Under the pieces are notes generated by a model that saw only the letters and a list, made by a program, of their open reading frames with translations, had not been told where the DNA came from and did no database searches. A stretch of 64,000 bases of DNA, taken from NCBI GenBank assembly GCA_949841355.1, contig CATKZP010000011.1, forward strand, positions 1 through 64,000, written 5' to 3'. The first letter of the stretch is position 1. Each line of letters begins with the position of its first letter. Shown here one piece after another: positions 39,371 to 49,773 of the stretch. Position numbers and translations under genes: made by a program. This DNA comes from an uncultured Oscillospiraceae bacterium. GTDB lineage: Bacteria > Bacillota > Clostridia > Oscillospirales > Oscillospiraceae.

Positions 39371-40630
39371 TCACGCGGGGGGGAGCCCCGCCAGCCAGCG
39401 CCGGGCCATGTCCAGGGCGTGGTTGGCGGCCAGGTTCCGGATGCGGTCCCGGCGGGCCCGCATTCCGGCCAGGTTGAGCTGCCTCACCCACACGCCGCCG
39501 GGGGTGGCCAGGGCGGTGAACACCAGCCCCACCGGATTGCCCCGCTCGTCCGGATCGGGGCCCGCAACCCCGGTGACGGCCACCGCCAGGTCCGTCCCCA
39601 GCGCCTGCCGGGCGCCCTGGGCCATCTGCTCCGCCACCGGAGCGCACACCGCGCCCCTCTCGTCCAGCAGGGCCTGGGACACCCCCAGCAGCCCCGCCTT
39701 TACCTCACAGTGGTAGCTCACCACGCCGCCCTTGAACACCGACGCCGCGCCGGGCACGTCGGTGAGGCGCTTGGCGATGAGCCCCCCGGTGCAGCTCTCC
39801 GCCGTGCCCAGGGTGAGGCCCCGGGCCCGGGCCCCCTCCAGCACCACCTGGGGCAGGCCGGACACGTCCGCGCCGTAGATGAGGTCCCCCAGGATGGCCC
39901 GCACCTGCCCCTCCACCGGGGCGATGAGGGCGTCCGCCGCCTCGATGGTGTCCGCCTTGGCGGTGATGCGCAGCTCCACCTCGCCCTCCTTGGCGTAGGG
40001 GGCCAGGGTGGGATTTTGCAGCTGGTTCATCCGGTCCCGGAGCTTATCCTCCACCGCCGACTCCCCCAGGCCGAACACCCGCAGGGTGCGGGAGCGGATG
40101 ACCCCCTCGCTCAGCCGGGCCAGCCAGGGCAGGGCCCGCTCCCGGAACATGGGCAGGCACTCGGCGGGGGGGCCGGGGAGCATGACCACATAGGTCCCGT
40201 CCGCCTCAAAGGCGCAGCCGGGGGCGGTGCCCCAGGCGTTGTCCAGCACGCGGCACCCTTCAGGCAGGTACGCCTGCTGGAGGTTGTTGTCCGTCATCTC
40301 CCGGCCCATGCGCGCGAAAAAGGCGCGGATCTCCCGGGCGCACTCGGGGTGGAACACCAGCTTTCTGCCGAAGCACTCCGTCAGGGTCTGCTTGGTGAGG
40401 TCGTCGCAGGTGGGGCCCAGCCCGCCGGTGGTGACGATGACGTCCGCCCGGCTTCTGGCCAGCTCCACCGCGGCGCGCAGGCGGCCCGGATTGTCCCCCA
40501 CCACCGAGTGGTACAGCACGTTCAACCCCAGCCCGGACAGCTCCCGGCTGAGGGCCTGGGCGTCGGAGTTGACGATGGAGCCAAGCAGCAGCTCGGTGCC
40601 CACGGACAGGATTTCCACGGTATGGCTCAT
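39371..40630 (-). CDS. cinA: CinA family protein (nicotinamide-nucleotide amidase / competence-damage protein)
   Basis: A 419-residue two-domain CinA. The N-terminal MoCF/COG1058 domain (EILSVGTELLLGSIVNSDAQ, TTGGLGPTCDDLTK, MLPGPPAE) hydrolyses ADP-ribose-type compounds in homologues. The C-terminal domain (GTAESCTGGLIAKRLTDVPGAASVFKGGVVSY, TGVAGPDP) deamidates NMN to NaMN in NAD recycling. Start at ATG 40630 behind AAGGAGG. Divergent from the aro operon; in many Firmicutes it sits near recA, which is not in this window. Confidence 0.94.
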   Translation of the reverse strand: MSHTVEILSVGTELLLGSIVNSDAQALSRELSGLGLNVLYHSVVGDNPGRLRAAVELARSRADVIVTTGGLGPTCDDLTKQTLTECFGRKLVFHPECAREIRAFFARMGREMTDNNLQQAYLPEGCRVLDNAWGTAPGCAFEADGTYVVMLPGPPAECLPMFRERALPWLARLSEGVIRSRTLRVFGLGESAVEDKLRDRMNQLQNPTLAPYAKEGEVELRITAKADTIEAADALIAPVEGQVRAILGDLIYGADVSGLPQVVLEGARARGLTLGTAESCTGGLIAKRLTDVPGAASVFKGGVVSYHCEVKAGLLGVSQALLDERGAVCAPVAEQMAQGARQALGTDLAVAVTGVAGPDPDERGNPVGLVFTALATPGGVWVRQLNLAGMRARRDRIRNLAANHALDMARRWLAGLPPA

Positions 40631-40760
40631 GATACGGCCTCCTTGCAAGGTTCTTGTGCTCTATTTTATCCCCCGTCCGCCGGTTATGTCAAGAAAAAGG
40701 CGAGCTGCCGGGCCGCGCCTGCGGGCGGCGCACGGTTTCGCGCCTTTGTTCAAAAACTTC

Positions 40761-40789
40761 TTGCATTTTACCTGGTTAAAGTATATAAT
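40761..40789 (+). promoter_or_regulatory. Promoter of the aro-pheA operon
   Basis: TTGCAT (40761-40766), 17-bp spacer, TATAAT (40784-40789). Transcription should begin near 40796, giving a ~230-nt leader before aroF. Confidence 0.85.
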
Positions 40790-40821
40790 GTCCCCAATCA
40801 AACATCAGCGAGGTAGCGTCA

Positions 40822-40917
40822 ATGACCCGACTCTGTGCCCACAGCTTCACCTTTACCTTTGGCTGGACTCGATTTAACGGGTCCGGCTGCTTTGGCGTGT
40901 TCAAGCGCGGCGCGTGA
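40822..40917 (+). CDS. Phenylalanine-rich leader peptide (31 aa) of the aro operon
   Basis: ATG 40822 is preceded by GAGGT nine bases upstream and lies ~26 nt into the predicted transcript; TGA is at 40915-40917. Six of 31 residues are Phe (both TTC and TTT), four of them inside the ten-residue run FTFTFGWTRF, with one Trp and no Tyr. An intrinsic terminator follows 42 bp after the stop, then aroF. This is the arrangement of the enterobacterial pheA leader, where a ribosome waiting for Phe-tRNA prevents termination. The peptide itself is expected to have no other function. Confidence 0.75.
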   Translation: MTRLCAHSFTFTFGWTRFNGSGCFGVFKRGA

Positions 40918-40958
40918 GTGAGGGGCGGCAGGCCCCGCCTGAATTTGTGCAGCATCGG

Positions 40959-41003
40959 GAAGCTCATGGACCGCGGGCGGTCTGTGGGCTTCTTTCTATT
41001 TTG
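40959..41003 (+). terminator. Attenuator terminator before aroF
   Basis: Arms 40959-40973 and 40978-40992 pair over 15 bp (GAAGC..GACCG with CGGTC..GCTTC, three G-T wobbles) around CGGG, followed by the T-rich run TTTCTATTTT. The 5' arm can instead pair with sequence at the leader-peptide stop codon: CGTGAGT (40913-40919) with GCTCATG (40962-40968), seven bp including two wobbles, a possible antiterminator. Confidence 0.75.
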
Positions 41004-41025
41004 AGGAAAAAGGAGTTTTTTTATT

Positions 41026-42048
41026 ATGGTAATTGTGATGAAGCCCGGCGTGAGCCAGGAGAAAATTCAGGCCCTGGCGACCCAGCTGGAGCGGGACCAC
41101 GGCGTGGCCGTGGGGATTACCAACGGCGTGGACTGCTCCATTCTGGGGCTGGTGGGGGATACCGCCCACATCGACATGGGCAAGCTGTCCATGAACGACG
41201 ATGTGGAGCGGGTCATGCGGGTGCAGGAGCCCTATAAGAAGGCCAACCGCAAGTTCCACCCGGAGGACACGGTGGTGGATGTGTCCGGCGCGCCCATCGG
41301 CGGCGGGGACCGGTTCACCGTCATCGCCGGGCCCTGCTCGGTGGAGAGCGAGGAGCAGATCGTGGGGGTGGCCCGGGACGTGAAGGACGCCGGAGCCGCC
41401 CTGCTGCGGGGGGGCGCGTTCAAACCCCGCACGTCGCCCTACTCCTTCCAGGGCATGGGCACCGACGGGCTGGAGCTGCTGCTGGAGGCCAGGGCGGACA
41501 CCGGCCTGCCCATTGTGTCCGAGATCATGGCGCCCCGGTACTGCCAGCTGTTTGAGGAAAAGGTGGATCTGGTGCAGGTGGGCGCCCGGAACATGCAGAA
41601 CTTTGACCTGCTGAAGGAGGTGGGCAAGCTGTCCAAGCCGGTGCTGCTCAAGCGGGGGCTGTCCAACACCTACGAGGAGTGGATCATGTCGGCGGAGTAT
41701 ATCATGGCCGCGGGCAATGAGAACGTGATCCTGTGCGAGCGGGGTGTGCGCACCTTCGAGACCTACACCCGCAACACCCTGGACCTGTCCGCCATCCCGG
41801 CCATCCGGAGGATGAGCCACCTGCCCATTGTGGTGGACCCCTCCCACGCCGCGGGGATGTACTGGATGGTGGAGCCGCTGGCCATGGCCGCCGTGGCGGT
41901 GGGGGCGGACGGCCTGATGGTGGAGGTCCACAACGACCCGCCCTGCGCCAAGTGCGACGGGGCCCAGTCCCTCACGCCGGAGAAGTTCCGGCACCTGATT
42001 GGGAAATTGAATCCGCTCATTGAGCTCATGGACAAAAAATTGGTGTGA
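41026..42048 (+). CDS. aroF: 3-deoxy-D-arabino-heptulosonate 7-phosphate synthase (type I-beta)
   Basis: First enzyme of the shikimate pathway: PEP plus erythrose 4-phosphate to DAHP. 340 residues. Residues 1-70 form a ferredoxin-like regulatory domain as in Thermotoga DAHP synthase, where Tyr/Phe bind for feedback inhibition. The TIM barrel shows VIAGPCSVES, LRGGAFKPRTSPYSFQG, QVGARNMQNFDLLKE, LLKRG and VVDPSHAAG, with Cys/His/Glu/Asp metal ligands. AAAAAGGAG precedes ATG after the attenuator. First structural gene of the operon. Confidence 0.96.
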   Translation: MVIVMKPGVSQEKIQALATQLERDHGVAVGITNGVDCSILGLVGDTAHIDMGKLSMNDDVERVMRVQEPYKKANRKFHPEDTVVDVSGAPIGGGDRFTVIAGPCSVESEEQIVGVARDVKDAGAALLRGGAFKPRTSPYSFQGMGTDGLELLLEARADTGLPIVSEIMAPRYCQLFEEKVDLVQVGARNMQNFDLLKEVGKLSKPVLLKRGLSNTYEEWIMSAEYIMAAGNENVILCERGVRTFETYTRNTLDLSAIPAIRRMSHLPIVVDPSHAAGMYWMVEPLAMAAVAVGADGLMVEVHNDPPCAKCDGAQSLTPEKFRHLIGKLNPLIELMDKKLV

Positions 42049-42061
42049 GGAGGGGCAGGCT

Positions 42062-42394
42062 ATGGCAAAATTGGAGCGCGCGATCACCGGCGATTTTGAC
42101 GAGGTGCTGGGGCGCCTGGAGCGTGCGGTGCTGAACGGCAGTATGTCCGCCAGCCTGGAGGACCGCTCGGATTTCACCGTCGGCCCGGCCCGGGTGGCGG
42201 TGCGGATGTACGAGCGGTACAGCGCCCTGGGCGGAAACCGGGTGGCCCTGTCCCTCACCCTGGCGGGGGAGGGGGACCGGCTCTATCTCACCGCCATCAC
42301 CGCCGGGGGCAGCCAGGCCATGTTCTTCAAGCTCAACACCTGGGGCGAGGAGGCGTTCCTGGACACGCTGGCCGGCGAGGCGGACCGGCTCTAA
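42062..42394 (+). CDS. Small conserved protein in the aro operon (DUF6054-like)
   Basis: A 110-residue soluble protein with the blocks ITGDFDEVLGRLERAVLNGSMSAS, VAVRMYERYS, GGNRVALSLTLAGEGDRLYL and GGSQAMFFKLNTWGEEAFL. I believe it matches a small Firmicutes DUF (DUF6054), but the function is unknown. It sits 13 bp after aroF and 15 bp before aroB with GTGAGGAGG before ATG, so it is made with the pathway enzymes. Confidence 0.72.
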   Translation: MAKLERAITGDFDEVLGRLERAVLNGSMSASLEDRSDFTVGPARVAVRMYERYSALGGNRVALSLTLAGEGDRLYLTAITAGGSQAMFFKLNTWGEEAFLDTLAGEADRL

Positions 42395-42409: not shown

Positions 42410-43492
42410 ATGAAAACCCTCACCGTGGCCCTTCCGGGCCGGGAGTACGATATTTTGATCCAGCGGGGCCTGCTCTCCCAGGCGGGGGAGCGCATCCGCG
42501 CCGCCCTGCCCCGCGCCCGCAAGCTGGCGGTGGTCACCGACAGTCATGTGGAACCCCTTTACGGCAAAACGGTGCTGGACAGTTTGGCGGCCTCCGGGTT
42601 TGAGGCCCGGCTGTTCTCTGTCCCGGCGGGGGAGGCAAGTAAAAACCCTTCCCAGCTCGCCCAGCTGTGGGAGGACTTCATGGACTTCGGCCTCACCCGC
42701 ACCGACGCCGTGGCGGCCCTGGGGGGCGGCGTGGTGGGGGATCTGGCGGGCTTTGCCGCCGCCACCATCCTCCGGGGGGTGCCTTTCGTTCAGATCCCCA
42801 CCACGCTGCTGGCCCAGGTGGACAGCAGCGTGGGCGGCAAGGTGGCCATCGACCTGAAGGCGGGCAAGAACCTGGCCGGGGCCTTCTACCAGCCCAAGCT
42901 GGTGCTCATGGACCCGGAGGTGCTGAACACCCTGGCCCTGCCCCAGTTCATGGACGGCATGTCGGAGGTGATAAAGTACGGCTGCATCTGGGACGCCGGT
43001 TTCTTCGATTTCCTCACCGCCCGCCCCTCCAAGCCGGAATTGATGGCGGATATTGAACGCATTTTGTATACCTGCTGCGATATAAAACGCCAAGTGGTCA
43101 TGGAGGACGAGCTGGACACCGGCCTGCGGATGATTTTGAACTTCGGCCACACCCTGGGCCACGCCTACGAGCTGGCGGGGCGCTATACCCAGTGGAGCCA
43201 TGGCGAGGCGGTGGCGGCGGGCATGTGCGCGGCGGCCAAGCTGGGGGCGGCGCTGGGCGTCACCCCTGGGGACGTGCCGGGGCGCATTGAGGCTGCGCTG
43301 GGCGCCCTGGGCCAGGTCACCGGGCTGTCCTGCTCTATGGAGGAGTACGCCGCCGCCATCGGCCTGGACAAAAAGGGCGCGGGGGCGGACATCACCCTGA
43401 TTCTGCTGGACAAAATCGGCCATGCCGTCCCCCATACGCTGCCCAAGGCGGAGCTGCTGCGCCTGCTGGAATCCTTCCACAACGTCCTATAA
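42410..43492 (+). CDS. aroB: 3-dehydroquinate synthase
   Basis: Second shikimate enzyme, NAD- and metal-dependent, 360 residues. NAD/substrate motif LGGGVVGDLAGFAAATILRG near residue 105, PTTLLAQVDSSVGGKVAIDL near 130, KAGKNLAGAFYQP near 150, and metal ligands in LNFGHTLGHAYE (near 245) and HGEAVAAGM (near 265). GGGAGGAGG precedes ATG. Confidence 0.97.
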   Translation: MKTLTVALPGREYDILIQRGLLSQAGERIRAALPRARKLAVVTDSHVEPLYGKTVLDSLAASGFEARLFSVPAGEASKNPSQLAQLWEDFMDFGLTRTDAVAALGGGVVGDLAGFAAATILRGVPFVQIPTTLLAQVDSSVGGKVAIDLKAGKNLAGAFYQPKLVLMDPEVLNTLALPQFMDGMSEVIKYGCIWDAGFFDFLTARPSKPELMADIERILYTCCDIKRQVVMEDELDTGLRMILNFGHTLGHAYELAGRYTQWSHGEAVAAGMCAAAKLGAALGVTPGDVPGRIEAALGALGQVTGLSCSMEEYAAAIGLDKKGAGADITLILLDKIGHAVPHTLPKAELLRLLESFHNVL

Positions 43493-43505
43493 GGAGGTCT
43501 TTCCC

Positions 43506-45230
43506 ATGGATATCACCATCACCCCCGGCAGGCTGGCCGGGGCCGTCACCCCGCCGCCGTCCAAGTCCCAGGCCCACCGCCTGCTCATCGCCGCCGCCCT
43601 GGCCCACGGGGAGAGCGTGATCTCCCATGTGGCGCTGTCCCAGGACATCGAGGCCACCATCCGGTGCCTGGAGGAGCTGGGCGCGGGATTTTCCTGGGCG
43701 GGAGACACCGTGACCGTCCGGGGCATGGGGGCCAACGCCATGTCCCCCCTGCGGCGGATGGCCTATCCCCGGCTGGACTGCGGGGAAAGCGGTTCCACGT
43801 TACGCTTCTTGATTCCCATTGCGCTGGCGGTGCGGGGCGGCGGGATCTTCACCGGCCGGGGGCGGCTGATGGAGCGGCCGCTGAAGCCCTACTTCGACCT
43901 CTTCGACGAGAAGGGCATCTTCTATGAGCAGAAGGACGGCGTTCTCACCGTGGCCGGGATGCTCACCCCTGGGGAGTACCGCCTGCCGGGGGATGTGTCC
44001 TCCCAGTTTTTCACCGGGCTGCTGTTTGCCCTGCCCCTGCTGAACGGCCCGTCGGCCATCATCCCCACCACCCCCCTGGAGAGCGAGGGGTATATCCGGA
44101 TGACCCTCCAGGCCATGGGCCAGTTCGGGGTGGAGATGCCCGTCACCATGTCCCTGCCGCCCCACTACCACCCCCAGGGGAACCAGACCTACCGGGCGGC
44201 GGACGCGTCTGTGGAGGCGGACTGGTCCCAGGCGGCGTTCTGGTACGCGGCCATGTACCTCTGGGATGTGGACGTGCAGGGGATGAACCTCCGCTCCGCC
44301 CAGGGCGACCGGGTGATGGCCGACTATTACGACCGGTTTTTCATGTGGGCGGACTCCTTCGACCTGTCCAACTGCCCCGATCTGGCGCCCCCTCTGGCCG
44401 TCATGGCGGCGCTGCGTTCCGGCGGCGGCGGGACCCGGCTCACCAACGCCGCCCGCCTGCGCCTCAAGGAGAGCGACCGGCTGGCCTCGGTCACGGCGGT
44501 GCTCCGCGCCCTGGGGGCGGACGTCACCGAGGGGCCGGACTTCCTGGAAATTCGGGGCAGGGAAACGCTGGCCGGGGGCGTGACGGTGGACAGCTTCAAC
44601 GACCACCGCATCGCCATGATGGCCGCCATAGCCGCCACAAAATGTGTAAAGCCGGTTACCATTACAGGCGCTCAGTGCGTGGCCAAATCCTACCCCGGAT
44701 TCTGGGAGGACTTGGAGCGGCTGGGAGGAAAAATAGAGCGGCGCTATGACCTGTCCCTGGCCCCCATCGGGCCGGACAACTGGAAGCAGGCCGCCCTGCT
44801 CACCACCGACCCGGAGCGGCGCAATCCCCTGGACCAGCAGTGGGTGGTCAGCAACGCCTTCTCCATGCTTCAGGCGGCGTATGACCCCGCCTGGACCTGC
44901 CGGCTCATCTGCGCGGACGGCAGGCCGGTGGGCTTCGCCTTCTTCGGGCTGTGGGAGGAGCGGGGGAGCGTCCCGCTGCTGTGCCGGTATATGATCGACG
45001 TGGACCGCCAGGGCCGGGGGCTGGGGGCGCAGGCTCTGCCCCTGGTGGTGGAAGAGATGTACGCCCTGTACGGGCCTAAGGATATTTACCTCACGGTGGA
45101 GCCGGGGAACACCCGGGCGGTGCGGCTCTACGAGGGGTACGGCTTCCGGCCCACCGGGGAATTTGACTGCACGGAGGCGGTCTACCGCCTCCCCGCCCCC
45201 GGCGGCGAAAACGACCACAAGGAGTTATAA
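43506..45230 (+). CDS. aroA: EPSP synthase fused to a GNAT acetyltransferase domain
   Basis: A 574-residue fusion. Residues 1 to ~410 are 5-enolpyruvylshikimate-3-phosphate synthase: PPPSKSQAHRLLIAAAL, LDCGESGSTLRFLIP, LPGDVSSQFFTGLLFALP, LKESDRLASV, SFNDHRIAMMAAIAA. Residues ~412-574 form a complete GNAT domain, with the acetyl-CoA loop DRQGRGLGAQAL and the C-terminal NTRAVRLYEGYGFRPTGEF. The frame is open throughout, with no stop or separate start at the junction, and EPSP synthases are normally ~430 residues, so the tail is extra. AAGGAGG precedes ATG 43506. The acetyltransferase substrate is unknown. Confidence 0.93.
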   Translation: MDITITPGRLAGAVTPPPSKSQAHRLLIAAALAHGESVISHVALSQDIEATIRCLEELGAGFSWAGDTVTVRGMGANAMSPLRRMAYPRLDCGESGSTLRFLIPIALAVRGGGIFTGRGRLMERPLKPYFDLFDEKGIFYEQKDGVLTVAGMLTPGEYRLPGDVSSQFFTGLLFALPLLNGPSAIIPTTPLESEGYIRMTLQAMGQFGVEMPVTMSLPPHYHPQGNQTYRAADASVEADWSQAAFWYAAMYLWDVDVQGMNLRSAQGDRVMADYYDRFFMWADSFDLSNCPDLAPPLAVMAALRSGGGGTRLTNAARLRLKESDRLASVTAVLRALGADVTEGPDFLEIRGRETLAGGVTVDSFNDHRIAMMAAIAATKCVKPVTITGAQCVAKSYPGFWEDLERLGGKIERRYDLSLAPIGPDNWKQAALLTTDPERRNPLDQQWVVSNAFSMLQAAYDPAWTCRLICADGRPVGFAFFGLWEERGSVPLLCRYMIDVDRQGRGLGAQALPLVVEEMYALYGPKDIYLTVEPGNTRAVRLYEGYGFRPTGEFDCTEAVYRLPAPGGENDHKEL

Positions 45231-45234
45231 ACTG

Positions 45235-46281
45235 ATGAAATATTCCATCTTTGGCGAATCCCACGGCCCCGCCATCGGCGTGGTGCTGGAGGGCGTCCCC
45301 GCGGGGCTGGCGCTGGACCTGGACGCCGTCCGCGTGGACCTGGCCCGCCGGGCCCCGGGGAAAAACGCCCTGTCCACCGCCCGGCGGGAGGCGGACGAGC
45401 CCCGCATCCTCTCCGGCGTGTTTGAGGGCCGCACCACCGGCGCGCCCCTGTGCGCCGTCATGGACAACGCCGACGTGCGCTCCGGGGACTACGAGAAAAC
45501 CAAGGACCTGGCCCGCCCCGGCCACGCCGACTACGCCGCCCATGTGCGCTACCAGGGCTTCCGCGACTACCGGGGGGGCGGGCACTTCTCCGGGCGGCTC
45601 ACCGCGCCGCTGGTGTTCGCCGGAGGGGTGGCCAAGCAGCTGCTGGCGCAGCGGGGCGTCTTTGTGGGGGCCCACATCTCCACCATCTACGGCGTCAACG
45701 ACGGCGCGCTGGAGGAGTGGGAGAGCCTGAACGCCTGCGCCGCCAAGGACTTCCCCGTCCTGGACGACGAAAAGGGCGCGGAGATGCAGGCCGCCATCCT
45801 GGAGGCCAAAAACGAGCAGGACTCGGTGGGCGGGGCTATTGAGTGCGGGGTGTTCGGCCTGCCCGCCGGGCTGGGGGAGCCGGACTTCGGCCGCAACGCC
45901 GAGGGGATTTTCTCCCAGTACCTGTTCGCCGTCCCGGCGGTGAAGGCGGTGGCCTTTGGAGCGGGGACAGCCTTTGCCCTCATGCGGGGGTCGGAGGCCA
46001 ACGACCCGCTGTATGTGGACGAGGACGGCTCGGTGAAGGGGGAGCAGAACTGCGCCGGGGGGATCAACGGCGGCATCACCAACGGCATGCCCCTGGTGTT
46101 CGAGGTGACCATGCGCCCCACGCCCTCCATCGCCCGGCGGCAGTTCACCGTGGACCTGGCCAAGGGGGAGAACGCCGTGCTGGAGCTGTCCGGCCGCCAC
46201 GACCCCTGCGTGGTCCACCGGGCGGTGCCGGTGATCGAGGCGGCCGCCGCCCTGGCGGCTTGTGAGCTGCTGGGAATCTGA
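45235..46281 (+). CDS. aroC: Chorismate synthase
   Basis: Converts EPSP to chorismate using reduced FMN. 348 residues, slightly shorter than the common 360-390. Signatures: IFGESHGPAIGVVLEGVPAG at the start, RPGHADYAAHVRYQGFRDYRGGGHFSGR near residue 95, and the C-terminal RHDPCVVHRAVPVIEA. Begins at ATG 45235, five bases after the aroA stop, behind AAGGAG. Confidence 0.97.
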   Translation: MKYSIFGESHGPAIGVVLEGVPAGLALDLDAVRVDLARRAPGKNALSTARREADEPRILSGVFEGRTTGAPLCAVMDNADVRSGDYEKTKDLARPGHADYAAHVRYQGFRDYRGGGHFSGRLTAPLVFAGGVAKQLLAQRGVFVGAHISTIYGVNDGALEEWESLNACAAKDFPVLDDEKGAEMQAAILEAKNEQDSVGGAIECGVFGLPAGLGEPDFGRNAEGIFSQYLFAVPAVKAVAFGAGTAFALMRGSEANDPLYVDEDGSVKGEQNCAGGINGGITNGMPLVFEVTMRPTPSIARRQFTVDLAKGENAVLELSGRHDPCVVHRAVPVIEAAAALAACELLGI

Positions 46282-46300: not shown

Positions 46301-46789
46301 ATGGATTTAAAAACTCTGCGTCAAACCGATGAGAGCGCCGTCATCCTCCCCGGTGCGGCGGTGATGGGGGACGTGACCCTGGGCCCCGGCTGCTCGGTGT
46401 GGTTCAACGCCGTACTCCGGGGGGACGGCATGGCCATCGTGCTGGGCCGGGGCTGCAATGTTCAGGACTGCGCCGTGCTCCACTCGGAGAAGGCCCCCAC
46501 CGTGCTGGGGGAATACGTCTCGGTGGGCCATGGGGCCATTGTCCACGGCGCACGGGTGGGGGACAACACCATCGTGGGTATGGGGGCCACCCTGCTGGAC
46601 GGCGCCAGAATCGGCGCAAACTGCATGGTGGGGGCGGGAGCCGTGGTGACGGGGAAGATGGACGCCCCGGACGGCTCCCTGATCCTGGGCAATCCCGCCC
46701 GGGTGGTCCGGCCCCTGACGGAGGAGGAGACCGCCGGCCTGCGGGCCAACGCGGAGCACTACGAGGAGCTGAAGGAGAGGTACCGCTGA
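46301..46789 (+). CDS. Gamma-class carbonic anhydrase-like hexapeptide-repeat protein
   Basis: A 162-residue left-handed beta-helix protein of the YrdA/CaiE/gamma-CA group. The repeat runs from AAVMGDVTLGPGCSVWFNAVLRGD through IGANCMVGAGAVVTGKM. The three zinc-ligand histidines are present in CAVLHSEK, VSVGHGAIVHG, as in gamma-carbonic anhydrases. Inserted between aroC and pheA, with its stop overlapping the pheA start by one base; a link to the pathway is not obvious. Confidence 0.88.
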   Translation: MDLKTLRQTDESAVILPGAAVMGDVTLGPGCSVWFNAVLRGDGMAIVLGRGCNVQDCAVLHSEKAPTVLGEYVSVGHGAIVHGARVGDNTIVGMGATLLDGARIGANCMVGAGAVVTGKMDAPDGSLILGNPARVVRPLTEEETAGLRANAEHYEELKERYR

Positions 46790-47949
46790 TGGACGAGCTG
46801 GAAAATCTGCGCCGGGACATCGACGCCATCGACCGGGAGCTGGTGGAGCTGTTCCGCCGCCGGATGGACGTGACCGCTCATGTGGGGGAATACAAGCGGG
46901 AGCGGGGCGTCCCCGTGCTGGACCAGGCGCGGGAGCGCCAGGTGCTCCGCAACAAGGGGGAGCTGGCCGGGGAGGAGCTGCGTCCGGCGGTGATCACCCT
47001 GTACCAGACCATCATGGCCCTGTCCCGGCGGCAGCAGCGGGACATGATGGGCCAGGGGGCGGATAACCCCGGCGTGCTGCGCTGGCGGGAGGCCCAGGAC
47101 GGCGCCCGTGCGCCCGTGCCCGCCCCCCGGGTGGTATACCAGGGGGCGCCGGGGGCGTACAGCGAGCAGGCGGCGCTGGATTTCTTCGGCGGCGGCGCGG
47201 AAACCGCCGGGCTGGAGCAGTTTGAGGACTGCTTCCTGGCGCTGCGGGAGGGGCGGGCGGACTACGCCGTGCTGCCCATCGAGAACAGCTCCACCGGGGC
47301 CATCCGGCAGATCTACGACCTGCTCACCCAGTACGAGTGCTATATGGTGGGGGAGACCACGGTGAAGGTGGAGCACTGCCTCATGGCCCTGCCGGGGGCC
47401 ACGCTGGATGCCATCACCCAGGTCTACTCCCACGAGCAGGGCCTGTTCCAGTGCGAGCGGTATTTGAACGCCCACCCGGACTGGAAGCAGGTGCCCCAGG
47501 CGGACACCGCCGGGTCGGCCCAAATGGTGGCGGAGAGCGGCGACCTGACCCGCGCCGCCATCTGCTCCGCCCGGGCGGCGGAGCTGTACGGGCTGAACAT
47601 ACTGGCCCGGGGCATCAACCACAACACCCATAACACCACCCGGTTTGTGGTGGTGTCCCCCCGGCTGGAGCTGCGCCCCGGCGCGGACAAAATCAGCACC
47701 CTGTTCGTCCTGCCCCACCAGGCGGGGTCTCTCCACGAGGTGCTCACCGTGTTTGCCGTCCACGGGCTGAACATGGTGAAGCTGGAGTCCCGGCCCCTGC
47801 CGGGCCGGAGCTGGCAGTACATGTTCTTCCTGGAGTTCACCGGGGCCCCCGGCGACCCCGCCGTGGGCGACGCCCTCCACGAGCTGGCCCAGACCACCGG
47901 GGAGTTCCGGGTGCTGGGGTGGTTCCCCTCCAATCTGGGGCGGGAATAA
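46789..47949 (+). CDS. pheA: Bifunctional chorismate mutase / prephenate dehydratase
   Basis: P-protein taking chorismate via prephenate to phenylpyruvate, the committed route to Phe; 386 residues. Residues 1-90 form an AroQ-type chorismate mutase (LRRDIDAIDRELVELFRRRMD). Residues ~110-285 form the dehydratase (YQGAPGAYSEQAAL, VLPIENSSTGAI, HNTTRFVVV with the TRF motif). C-terminal ACT domain with KLESRPLPG, the ESRP Phe-binding site, so feedback inhibition by Phe is expected. Its presence fits the Phe-rich leader at the operon head. A parS follows. Confidence 0.96.
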   Translation: MDELENLRRDIDAIDRELVELFRRRMDVTAHVGEYKRERGVPVLDQARERQVLRNKGELAGEELRPAVITLYQTIMALSRRQQRDMMGQGADNPGVLRWREAQDGARAPVPAPRVVYQGAPGAYSEQAALDFFGGGAETAGLEQFEDCFLALREGRADYAVLPIENSSTGAIRQIYDLLTQYECYMVGETTVKVEHCLMALPGATLDAITQVYSHEQGLFQCERYLNAHPDWKQVPQADTAGSAQMVAESGDLTRAAICSARAAELYGLNILARGINHNTHNTTRFVVVSPRLELRPGADKISTLFVLPHQAGSLHEVLTVFAVHGLNMVKLESRPLPGRSWQYMFFLEFTGAPGDPAVGDALHELAQTTGEFRVLGWFPSNLGRE

Positions 47950-47956
47950 GAACGCG

Positions 47957-47972
47957 CGTTTCACGTGAAACA
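47957..47972. other. parS: parS centromere site, one mismatch, inside the aro operon
   Basis: CGTTTCACGTGAAACA: fifteen of sixteen bases match parS, with C in place of T at the first position. It lies between pheA and aroK within the transcribed operon. Confidence 0.85.
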
Positions 47973-47993
47973 TGTTTGGGAGGGGAGCGGGCC

Positions 47994-48503
47994 ATGGAAA
48001 AAAACATCGTTCTCATCGGCATGATGGGCAGCGGCAAGACCACCGTGGGCCGCCTGCTGGCCCGGCGGCTGGGCCGGGAGCTGGCGGACACCGACGCCCT
48101 CATTGAGCAGCGGACGGGCCGCTCCATCCCGGACATTTTCGCCCGGGACGGGGAGCCCGCCTTCCGGGCGCTGGAGCTGGAGCTGTGCCGGGAGCTGTCC
48201 GGGCGGGAGGGGCTGGTGATTGCCTGCGGCGGCGGCCTGCCCATGCAGGAGGAGGCCATCGCCGCCCTGAAGGAAAACGGCCTGGTGTTCTGGCTGGACC
48301 GGGACCCGGGGGAGACCTACGGCGGGCTGGACGTGTCCGGCCGCCCCCTGGCCCAGGGGGGACGGGAGGAGTTCTTGGAGCGTTACGCCCGCCGATCCCC
48401 CATCTACCGCCGCTGGGCGGACTTTATCCTGGTGAGGCCGGAAAGCCCCGAATACGCGCAGAGCCGCATTTTCACCATCTACACGGAGGTGTGCCAAGCA
48501 TGA
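47994..48503 (+). CDS. aroK: Shikimate kinase
   Basis: Phosphorylates shikimate at O3; 169 residues. P-loop IGMMGSGKTTVGRLLARRLG at residue 8, shikimate-binding DTDALIEQRTGRSI, ACGGGLPM near 80, the LID arginine region SGRPLAQ near 117. GGGAGGGG precedes ATG 47994. The stop overlaps the aroQ start (ATGA). Confidence 0.95.
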   Translation: MEKNIVLIGMMGSGKTTVGRLLARRLGRELADTDALIEQRTGRSIPDIFARDGEPAFRALELELCRELSGREGLVIACGGGLPMQEEAIAALKENGLVFWLDRDPGETYGGLDVSGRPLAQGGREEFLERYARRSPIYRRWADFILVRPESPEYAQSRIFTIYTEVCQA

Positions 48504-48931
48504 AATTCCTCGTCATCAACGGCCCCAACCTGAACCTGCTGGGCAGGCGGGAGCCGGGCATTTACGGCGATCAGAGCTACGAGGCGCTGTGCGCCCGCAT
48601 ACAGGACCACGCCGCCGCCCACGGCTCCACGGCCTGCTGCTTCCAGTCCAACCACGAGGGGGCCATCATCGACGCCATCCACGAGGCCGACGGGGCGTAC
48701 GACGCCATCGTCATCAACCCCGGGGCCTACACCCACTACAGCTACGCTATTCTGGACGCGCTCAAGGCGGTGGACGTGCCCGCCTATGAGGTGCACATCA
48801 GCCATATCGACCAGCGGGAGCCCTTCCGGGCCGTCTCCGTCACCGCCCCCGCCTGCGTGGGCCAGCTGTACGGCCATGGCTTCGACGGCTACCTGATGGC
48901 CATGGACTATTTTTTGGAGGGCGGAGCATGA
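48500..48931 (+). CDS. aroQ: 3-dehydroquinate dehydratase, type II
   Basis: Third pathway enzyme; 143 residues, the usual length of the dodecameric type II enzyme. FLVINGPNLNLLGRREPGIYG contains the catalytic Tyr of the flexible loop; FQSNHEGAIIDAIH, INPGAYTHYSYAI and YEVHISHIDQREPFR (catalytic His) follow. Coupled to aroK and aroE by four-base overlaps. Confidence 0.97.
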   Translation: MKFLVINGPNLNLLGRREPGIYGDQSYEALCARIQDHAAAHGSTACCFQSNHEGAIIDAIHEADGAYDAIVINPGAYTHYSYAILDALKAVDVPAYEVHISHIDQREPFRAVSVTAPACVGQLYGHGFDGYLMAMDYFLEGGA

Positions 48932-49773
48932 AGCTGCAAATCATCGGAGACCCGGTGCTCCACTCCAAATCCCCCGTCATCCAGGGGGCCATGCTGGCGG
49001 CGCTGGGGCTGGACGCGCCCTATACCCGCCGGCTGGTGCGCCGGGGAGAGCTGCCCCGGTACTTGGAGTGGGCCAGGGAGAACGGCGTCACCGGCTTCAA
49101 CGCCACCATGCCCCACAAGGAGGACCTGATCCCCCTGCTGGACGGGGTGGACCCCGCCGCCCGGACCATGGGGGCGGTGAACACCGTCTGCCTGCGGGAG
49201 GGGAAGTGGCTGGGCTTCAACACCGACGGGGCCGGGGCGGTGGAGGCGCTGGGCAGCGGGCTGAATCTGGACCCGGCGGGGCTCACCATCACCCTGCTGG
49301 GGGCGGGAGGGGCGGCCAAGGCGGTGGCCCTGGCCCTGTCCGCCGCGGGGGCGGAGCGGGTGCTGGTCTGCAACCGAACCCCGGCCCGGGCGGAGGAGCT
49401 CTGCGCCCAGGACCCGCTGGGGCGGCTGTCCCCCCACCCCTTCGGTGGGGACGCCCTGAGCCGCTGCGCGGCGCGGTCCCAGCTGCTGGTGAACTGCACC
49501 AACCTGGGCATGGCGGGCTGCCCCCACCAGTTTGAGGACTTCGCCTTTTTGGATGCCCTGCCCGCCGGGGCCGGGGTGTTTGACCTCATCTACCACCCAG
49601 CGCGGACCGAGCTGCTGGCCCAGGCAGAGCGCCGGGGGCTGCGTACGCTGAACGGCCTGCCCATGCTGGTGAACCAGGCGGTGCTGGCGCTGGAGCGCTT
49701 CCTGGACCGGCCGCTGGACCGGAAGGCCATGGCGGAGGCGGCGGCCAGCGCCCTGCGGGGGGAGGAAGCATGA
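48928..49773 (+). CDS. aroE: Shikimate dehydrogenase
   Basis: NADPH-dependent reduction of 3-dehydroshikimate to shikimate; 281 residues. HSKSPVIQGAMLAALGL near residue 13, FNATMPHKEDLIPLLD with the catalytic Lys near 65, NTDGAGAVEAL near 95, Rossmann GAGGAAKAVALAL near 125, and VNCTNLGM near 190. The start overlaps the aroQ stop and the stop overlaps the hydrolase start. Confidence 0.96.
   Translation: MKLQIIGDPVLHSKSPVIQGAMLAALGLDAPYTRRLVRRGELPRYLEWARENGVTGFNATMPHKEDLIPLLDGVDPAARTMGAVNTVCLREGKWLGFNTDGAGAVEALGSGLNLDPAGLTITLLGAGGAAKAVALALSAAGAERVLVCNRTPARAEELCAQDPLGRLSPHPFGGDALSRCAARSQLLVNCTNLGMAGCPHQFEDFAFLDALPAGAGVFDLIYHPARTELLAQAERRGLRTLNGLPMLVNQAVLALERFLDRPLDRKAMAEAAASALRGEEA

Follow-up and report, generated by a model that had tools for sequence, protein, structure and literature searches.

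A probable phenylalanine-codon attenuator upstream of the aroF operon of an Oscillospiraceae bacterium, with tyrosine-rich counterparts at tyrA-linked aroF genes

In this uncultured Oscillospiraceae bacterium, the DAHP synthase gene aroF is the first gene of a long shikimate and phenylalanine operon, and the locus raises the question of how transcription of such an operon might be tied to the supply of phenylalanine. An earlier note on the 64,000-nucleotide stretch of DNA analyzed here (the window) had read the region upstream of aroF as a Phe-dependent, ribosome-mediated attenuator. The genes all lie on the + strand, in the order aroF (41026 to 42048, with its ATG at 41026), a DUF6054 gene (42020 to 42394), aroB (42410 to 43492), aroA for EPSP synthase (43422 to 45230), aroC (45163 to 46281), pheA with chorismate mutase, prephenate dehydratase, and ACT domains (46399 to 47949), shikimate kinase (47919 to 48503), type II dehydroquinate dehydratase (48185 to 48931), and aroE (48928 to 49773). 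The true start of aroC is probably internal to its open reading frame (ORF), and the same is probable for pheA and the dehydratase gene. The aroA frame continues past the EPSP synthase into a GNAT acetyltransferase domain and is apparently an AroA-GNAT fusion. At several other loci, as here, the aroB start was about 400 nt more distant from aroF. From the gene order, we infer that the leader described below would control the whole operon.

A σA-type promoter, TTGCAT-17-TATAAT, was present on the + strand at 40761 to 40789 (TTGCAT at 40761 and TATAAT at 40784), with the 17-bp spacer that the earlier note had given. The −35 element shares only 3 of its 6 bases with TTGACA, and this pair was not among the promoters listed by a promoter scan; a TTGCA..TATAAT-like pair was found upstream of aroF in most of the close relatives listed. 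The leader ORF (40822 to 40917, +; ATG at 40822, TGA at 40915 to 40917) encodes the predicted 31-residue peptide MTRLCAHSFTFTFGWTRFNGSGCFGVFKRGA and is preceded by a Shine-Dalgarno (SD) GAGG at 40810 to 40813 (+), which was strongly conserved in the leader alignment. Its six Phe codons start at 40846, 40852, 40858, 40873, 40891, and 40900, which bears out the earlier description of a 31-codon ORF with its own ribosome site and four Phe codons in ten residues. Sequence, comparison, and the ribosome model described below point to F9, F11, F13, and F18 (40846 to 40875, +) as the putative regulatory codons. Among 292 SD-preceded starts of ORFs of 15 to 45 residues on both strands of the window, at least four Phe in ten residues occurred in the aroF leader only. 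A candidate small hairpin, seen in the sequence alone, lies between the leader and the terminator (40922 to 40936, +). A scan with Rfam 15 produced no family match at the leader at either the gathering or a relaxed threshold. The sole gathering-level Rfam match in the window was a malK-I RNA (RF03069; 14562 to 14742, +; 143.4 bits).

The leader is followed by an intrinsic terminator stem at 40957 to 40994 (+), which had 17 pairs, including G-U pairs, in a terminator scan and 16 pairs with −25.1 kcal/mol on folding. Its T-rich tail runs to about 41004, ending roughly 22 bp upstream of the aroF ATG, so that the terminator hairpin of the earlier note was confirmed. The scan of 40300 to 41500 found four sites versus 1.3 expected, and the site at 40957 to 40994 had the most pairs.

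Conservation of this arrangement was examined in a collection of AroF homologues, which comprised the 80 best loci from contigs, 300 family genomes, 196 class genomes, and 149 phylum genomes, as well as further aroF stretches taken by place. The loci were either the top matches from each search or hand-picked among the matches listed, and the fractions reported here are not unbiased frequencies. Close orthologues were defined as loci whose AroF was at least 67% identical, and their leaders were detected with a profile HMM that was trained on peptides from the same loci and is not independent of them. With this profile, a homologous leader peptide was detected at 85 of 106 close loci (73 of 90 after redundancy was removed), with a consensus near LTTASFxFxFGWARFMGAGFFGMGK, and Phe was the commonest residue in 69 nonredundant leaders (332 of 2,245 residues). 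A terminator lay between the leader and aroF for 169 of 173 aromatic leaders, compared with 26 of 173 after the region was shuffled (one shuffle per region, preserving base composition only, as in the antiterminator comparisons below). The earlier note would have been refuted had relatives lacked a conserved Phe-rich ORF and terminator, and these two counts indicated that relatives do carry them. The profile detected no leader in 17 of the 90 close orthologues (L003, L021, L023, L028, L042, L044, L045, L080, L084, L085, L086, L165, L166, L170, L176, L182, and L184). By eye, some of these (L021, L023, and L182) show diverged leaders farther upstream, which were not included in the count.

None of the 62 loci with less than 67% AroF identity matched the profile at E < 1e-3; they have other aromatic-rich leaders, such as FYFYFSLGFYFSAGFWFCKK in Clostridium ganghwense. 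We also screened for SD-preceded ORFs with at least five, or at least seven, aromatic residues in 12, and dinucleotide shuffles served as the control. Clusters of at least five were found in 173 of 223 nonredundant aroF upstream regions versus 35 of 1,115 shuffles, and clusters of at least seven in 80 of 223 versus 0 of 1,115. When residues present at least four times in 12 were counted with the same ORF filter, Phe led with 100 loci, followed by Tyr (75) and Gly (42). Of the 28 loci sampled across the phylum, 13 had an aromatic leader, 12 of them at 57% AroF identity or more. By these predictions, the leader is one of a set that is widespread in Clostridia and also occurs in Negativicutes (Phascolarctobacterium).

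That the aromatic codons would act as the sensor is supported most strongly by the match between leader codons and operon content. A second aroF, with 64% identity to the first, is present in the source genome. Its leader, MDCRSYGYGYYRYCDSGILSCP, contains five Tyr and no Phe residues and is followed by a terminator-like hairpin. This second operon (L125) consists of aroF2, a gene for an MBL-fold hydrolase, and tyrA, and its tyrA is the only PF02153 match in the source genome; trpE (TIGR00564) was not found in the assembly, which is 94.6% complete. The set of aroF2-type paralogues comprised 40 loci, two of which were without a scorable ORF. Among the 38 scored, tyrA lay downstream in 37 and an aromatic cluster was present in 33, and Tyr outnumbered Phe in 30 of these 33. 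Conversely, for the 85 Phe leaders, the collected stretch contained tyrA in no case, aroB in 83, and pheA in 45, the pheA count being a lower bound because pheA often lies beyond the stretch collected. Hence the expectation of the earlier note that Phe is the signal at this operon was supported, since tyrA-linked paralogues carry Tyr-rich leaders instead.

The same pattern was observed when leaders were grouped by operon class. The leaders of operons with aroB, aroA, or pheA only contained 400 Phe and 139 Tyr codons (n = 76), those of tyrA-only operons contained 75 Phe and 204 Tyr codons (n = 37), and those of merged operons (aroF-tyrA-aroB and onward) contained 314 Phe and 258 Tyr codons (n = 56). 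Codon content differed between the classes in Mann-Whitney tests (P = 2e-17, 2e-12, and 2e-12). Each leader ORF was picked by its total aromatic content, and the pick is therefore biased to neither Phe nor Tyr. In 21 of 29 genomes, which were hand-listed as having both aroF copies among the loci collected, both copies had aromatic leaders, and in 20 of the 21 the aroB..pheA copy had the larger Phe share, with one tie. Independent contrasts on an AroF tree with 169 tips gave r = 0.23 (P = 0.0025), and 16 of the 19 contrasts that were informative went the way expected. Operon class changed 13 times on this tree by parsimony, and 8 of 500 label shuffles, which ignore the tree, reached the observed r.

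We next consider how the leader might act on the terminator. The earlier note had suggested that the region around the leader stop codon pairs with the 5′ arm of the terminator. A candidate antiterminator strand at 40913 to 40919 (+; CGTGAGT), which overlaps the stop codon, can form seven pairs, two of them G-U, with 40962 to 40968 (GCTCATG) in the terminator 5′ arm, at −9.2 kcal/mol. The pairing is thus present, and it recurred in relatives, most of which have a stop-region strand that pairs with the terminator 5′ arm; for this single sequence it was no better than shuffles (z = +0.38). At this locus, support for the putative antiterminator comes from its conserved position in relatives, and its stability is modest. 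Matched changes in the helix were seen as GAGACC:GGTCTC in L016 and L020 and as GTGAGC:GCTCAC in L178. Swapping partners between leaders weakened the stop-region pairing (P = 0.0115), and a start-region control gave P = 0.54 (68 of 69 leaders; relatedness only partly controlled). Compared with shuffles, the antiterminator had a mean z of −0.83 over 167 leaders, with P ≤ 0.05 in 34 of the 167. RNAalifold predicted zero consensus pairs on a MAFFT alignment of 65 of the 69 nonredundant leaders (L057, L075, L089, and L183 were left out); we think that this alignment mixes two hairpin registers that are one base apart.

A thermodynamic folding model with a ribosome, which we assumed to cover positions −15 to +14 relative to the A-site codon, indicated when the antiterminator could form. 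For RNA made to 40970 or 40978, respectively, the predicted probability of the antiterminator was 0.81 or 0.985 with the ribosome at F11 or F13, 0.07 or 0.97 with a stall at F9, and 0.004 or 0.47 with a stall at F18. It was 0.00 at both lengths with the ribosome at the stop codon and 0.003 or 0.54 without a ribosome. Once the terminator 3′ arm was complete, the terminator prevailed at equilibrium in every modeled state (probability of 0.97 to 1.00), and the antiterminator would therefore have to act kinetically. When the model was applied to 168 leaders, sequestration of the terminator arm in the stalled state relative to the stop state went up in 37 and down in 21 of 72 Phe leaders (P = 0.004), and up in 41 and down in 12 of 55 leaders of merged operons (P = 1e-5). 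The test failed for Tyr leaders (12 up and 15 down of 37; P = 0.56), so for these leaders the claim is limited to codon content and a terminator and does not extend to the same antiterminator.

Other pairings were also considered. A protector (1:2) pairing between the early codons and the stop region was sensitive to partner swaps (P = 0.0005), as was its start-region control (P = 0.0455), and the pairing is weak at this locus (probability of 0.05 to 0.19 without a ribosome). Leader codons 5 to 16 were rejected as the partner of the terminator arm (swap P = 0.146). An alternative antiterminator, in which the 3′ arm of a hairpin inside the ORF (hairpin H, below) pairs with the terminator 5′ arm, had a swap P value of 0.0195; it has only about five pairs at this locus, and the stop-region strand is therefore preferred here. 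In several genomes, this H-arm pairing is stronger than that of the stop-region strand. In Flavonifractor-like leaders (L026, L078, and L079, the last from Flavonifractor plautii), the H 3′ arm has almost the same sequence as the terminator 3′ arm (ATGGGCGCC), and consequently it could provide a second antiterminator by pairing with the terminator 5′ arm.

Taken together, the conserved leader, the terminator, the recurrent stop-region strand, and the Tyr-rich leaders of the paralogues support the attenuator reading of the earlier note, and we consider it very probable that the aroF leader attenuates transcription through the ribosome and that charged tRNA-Phe is what it senses. During a shortage of Phe-tRNA, the ribosome would stall on Phe codons 11 to 13 (40852 to 40860) and leave 40913 to 40919 free. 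The free strand would pair with 40962 to 40968 before the terminator 3′ arm is made, and RNA polymerase would then read on into aroF..pheA. When phenylalanine is plentiful, the ribosome would reach the stop codon and cover 40913 to 40919, and the terminator would form. The amino acid sensed would follow the operon: leaders of aroB..pheA operons would sense Phe, those of aroF-tyrA operons Tyr, and those of merged operons both.

Folding and comparison identified hairpin H at 40861 to 40888 (+; arms GGCUGGACUCG and CGGGUCCGGCU), the loop of which contains a Phe codon. Much of the conservation of the leader peptide coincides with this hairpin, which could be formed, in either of two registers, in 46 of 50 distinct blocks. 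Related hairpins occupy the same position in C. ganghwense (AGCTTGGGCTTTTACTTTAGCGCTGGCT in L106) and in a Tyr leader (CCGCTATTGCGATAGCGG in L150). Codon usage in the leaders was unlike that in aroF. The ratio of TTT to TTC among Phe codons was 262:70 in leaders versus 150:451 in aroF, and CGA accounted for 83 of 164 Arg codons in leaders versus 29 of 1,075 in aroF. This codon choice fits selection acting at the RNA level, and we infer that H may be a pause or protector hairpin.

One alternative gives H a larger role. Together with a frequent downstream U-rich run, it would be an early terminator or strong pause that is suppressed by translation, which would give the leader two checkpoints. 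In line with this idea, H was more stable than randomly recoded versions in Phe leaders (mean z of −1.19; 42 of 76 below −1), Tyr leaders (mean z of −1.38; 20 of 37 below −1), and merged leaders (mean z of −0.68; 24 of 56 below −1), and the 8 nt after H contained a mean of 4.5, 3.3, and 3.6 T in these three groups. However, the tract after H at this locus is only GCTTTGGC, compensatory changes within a fixed H register were few (12 cells over the pairs listed in 50 distinct blocks), and many merged leaders have a weak H or none. We regard this early checkpoint as rather unlikely, and it is not mutually exclusive with the attenuator. Conservation of the peptide beyond its Phe residues across many genera would also be expected if the nascent peptide halted the ribosome by contacts with the exit tunnel, perhaps in response to free phenylalanine and not to codon starvation. 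Yet the conservation extends to the nucleotide level, as seen in the TTT and CGA bias, and coincides with hairpin H, and Tyr replaces Phe where the operon makes tyrosine, as codon sensing predicts. Nascent-peptide arrest thus appears very unlikely.

A protein, TRAP-like or another antiterminator, might control the terminator, with the short ORF being incidental or encoding an unrelated small protein. Translation of the leader ORF is a prediction, which leaves some room for this idea, but leader codons match operon products across 13 inferred changes of class, which would be difficult to account for if the leader were not translated, and we judge protein control to be quite improbable. A T-box riboswitch, which would read uncharged tRNA-Phe directly, is predicted elsewhere: the source genome has 13 T-box matches at other places, 4 of them over the cut-off, and T-boxes lie directly upstream of aroF in two Erysipelotrichia, Faecalitalea and Faecalicoccus (L096:5728-5964 and L111:5735-5966), where the same need for control would be answered in another way. 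At the locus studied here, there was no T-box (RF00230) match at the gathering or relaxed threshold, and a T-box is extremely unlikely to be the regulator. The reading that we prefer is attenuation by a ribosome on the Phe codons.

Enterobacterial pheA and pheST leaders, like those of the trp and his type, consist of an ORF rich in codons for the end product, a terminator, and an antiterminator, with the position of the ribosome as the switch. Such attenuators are described in passing in PMC9413887 and PMC2659441. The aroF leader shares with them the end-product codons in the ORF, the terminator, the alternative antiterminator, and the proposed switch by ribosome position. Unlike the enterobacterial pheA and pheST leaders, it occurs in another phylum, matches no Rfam family, including the proteobacterial Phe leader, heads a whole shikimate-Phe operon, and has a conserved hairpin inside the ORF.

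The earlier note knew of no such leader at a DAHP synthase operon in Clostridia. This was only partly right, since uORFs at aroF of Acholeplasma and Corynebacterium glutamicum and two shikimate-gene motifs have been published. According to the text available for PMC8632094, the uORFC-13-1 motif upstream of Acholeplasma aroF has a uORF with at least one Phe codon and an adjacent terminator; it thus shares with the present leader aroF, a Phe-containing uORF, an extra base-paired substructure, a terminator, and the same proposed mechanism. Compared by its description there, it differs in that its 24 sequences come only from Acholeplasma and environmental DNA and include no Phe/Tyr paralogue pair. 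Figure 6b of PMC6429828 presents two candidate uORFs that encode Phe and Tyr at shikimate genes, as our leaders do. Clostridium novyi is among the five genomes of that study, and its uORFs may therefore belong to the same family, but the accessible text names neither the genes, the source genome, details of the mechanism, nor a link to tyrA or pheA. For C. glutamicum aroF, a putative attenuator leader peptide with Phe-Tyr-Phe is described in the part available of PMC4046766; like the leader studied here, it is of the attenuator type and lies at a DAHP synthase gene, but it concerns one actinobacterial species, and that part reports no match to operon products. PMC9413887 also reports His leader attenuators predicted in some Firmicutes, including Eubacteriales (17 genomes); these are likewise predicted to be ribosome mediated in Gram-positive bacteria but belong to histidine operons. 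A 2005 survey of Actinobacteria (PMC1262725), as far as its text is available, reports that operons for Phe or Tyr lack a conserved RNA element. In the literature searched, which left most subscription papers outside, we found no description of a Clostridia-wide match between Phe or Tyr codons and operon content. Phe/Tyr uORFs at shikimate genes were thus already in print, and what is fresh here is the breadth, the pair of paralogues with Phe and Tyr leaders, and the occurrence of a hairpin within the ORF.

A wider proposal, which we put forward tentatively and hold at somewhat less than an even chance, is that Clostridia and their relatives run their DAHP synthase isoenzymes via a codon-reprogrammable attenuator. 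After duplication of aroF, one copy may have kept Phe codons together with aroB..pheA, and the other may have taken Tyr codons together with tyrA. In many leaders, hairpin H, which has regulatory codons within its loop or next to it, might add a second checkpoint that pauses or terminates RNA polymerase until the ribosome arrives. The aroF leaders also make it possible to ask directly whether a hairpin within a leader ORF keeps RNA polymerase in time with the ribosome in Gram-positive bacteria. The match between codons and operons gives an unusually clean natural experiment, in which codon substitution would have rewritten the specificity of a sensor, and it makes each operon's signal predictable from sequence alone. 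In Escherichia coli, DAHP synthase is controlled by TyrR and by isoenzymes with specific feedback. If the proposal is true, the codons of the leader do what TyrR and feedback-specific isoenzymes do in E. coli. Many gut Clostridia, among them the culturable Flavonifractor and Pseudoflavonifractor, probably set entry into the shikimate pathway by leader-peptide attenuation and not by a T-box or a repressor.
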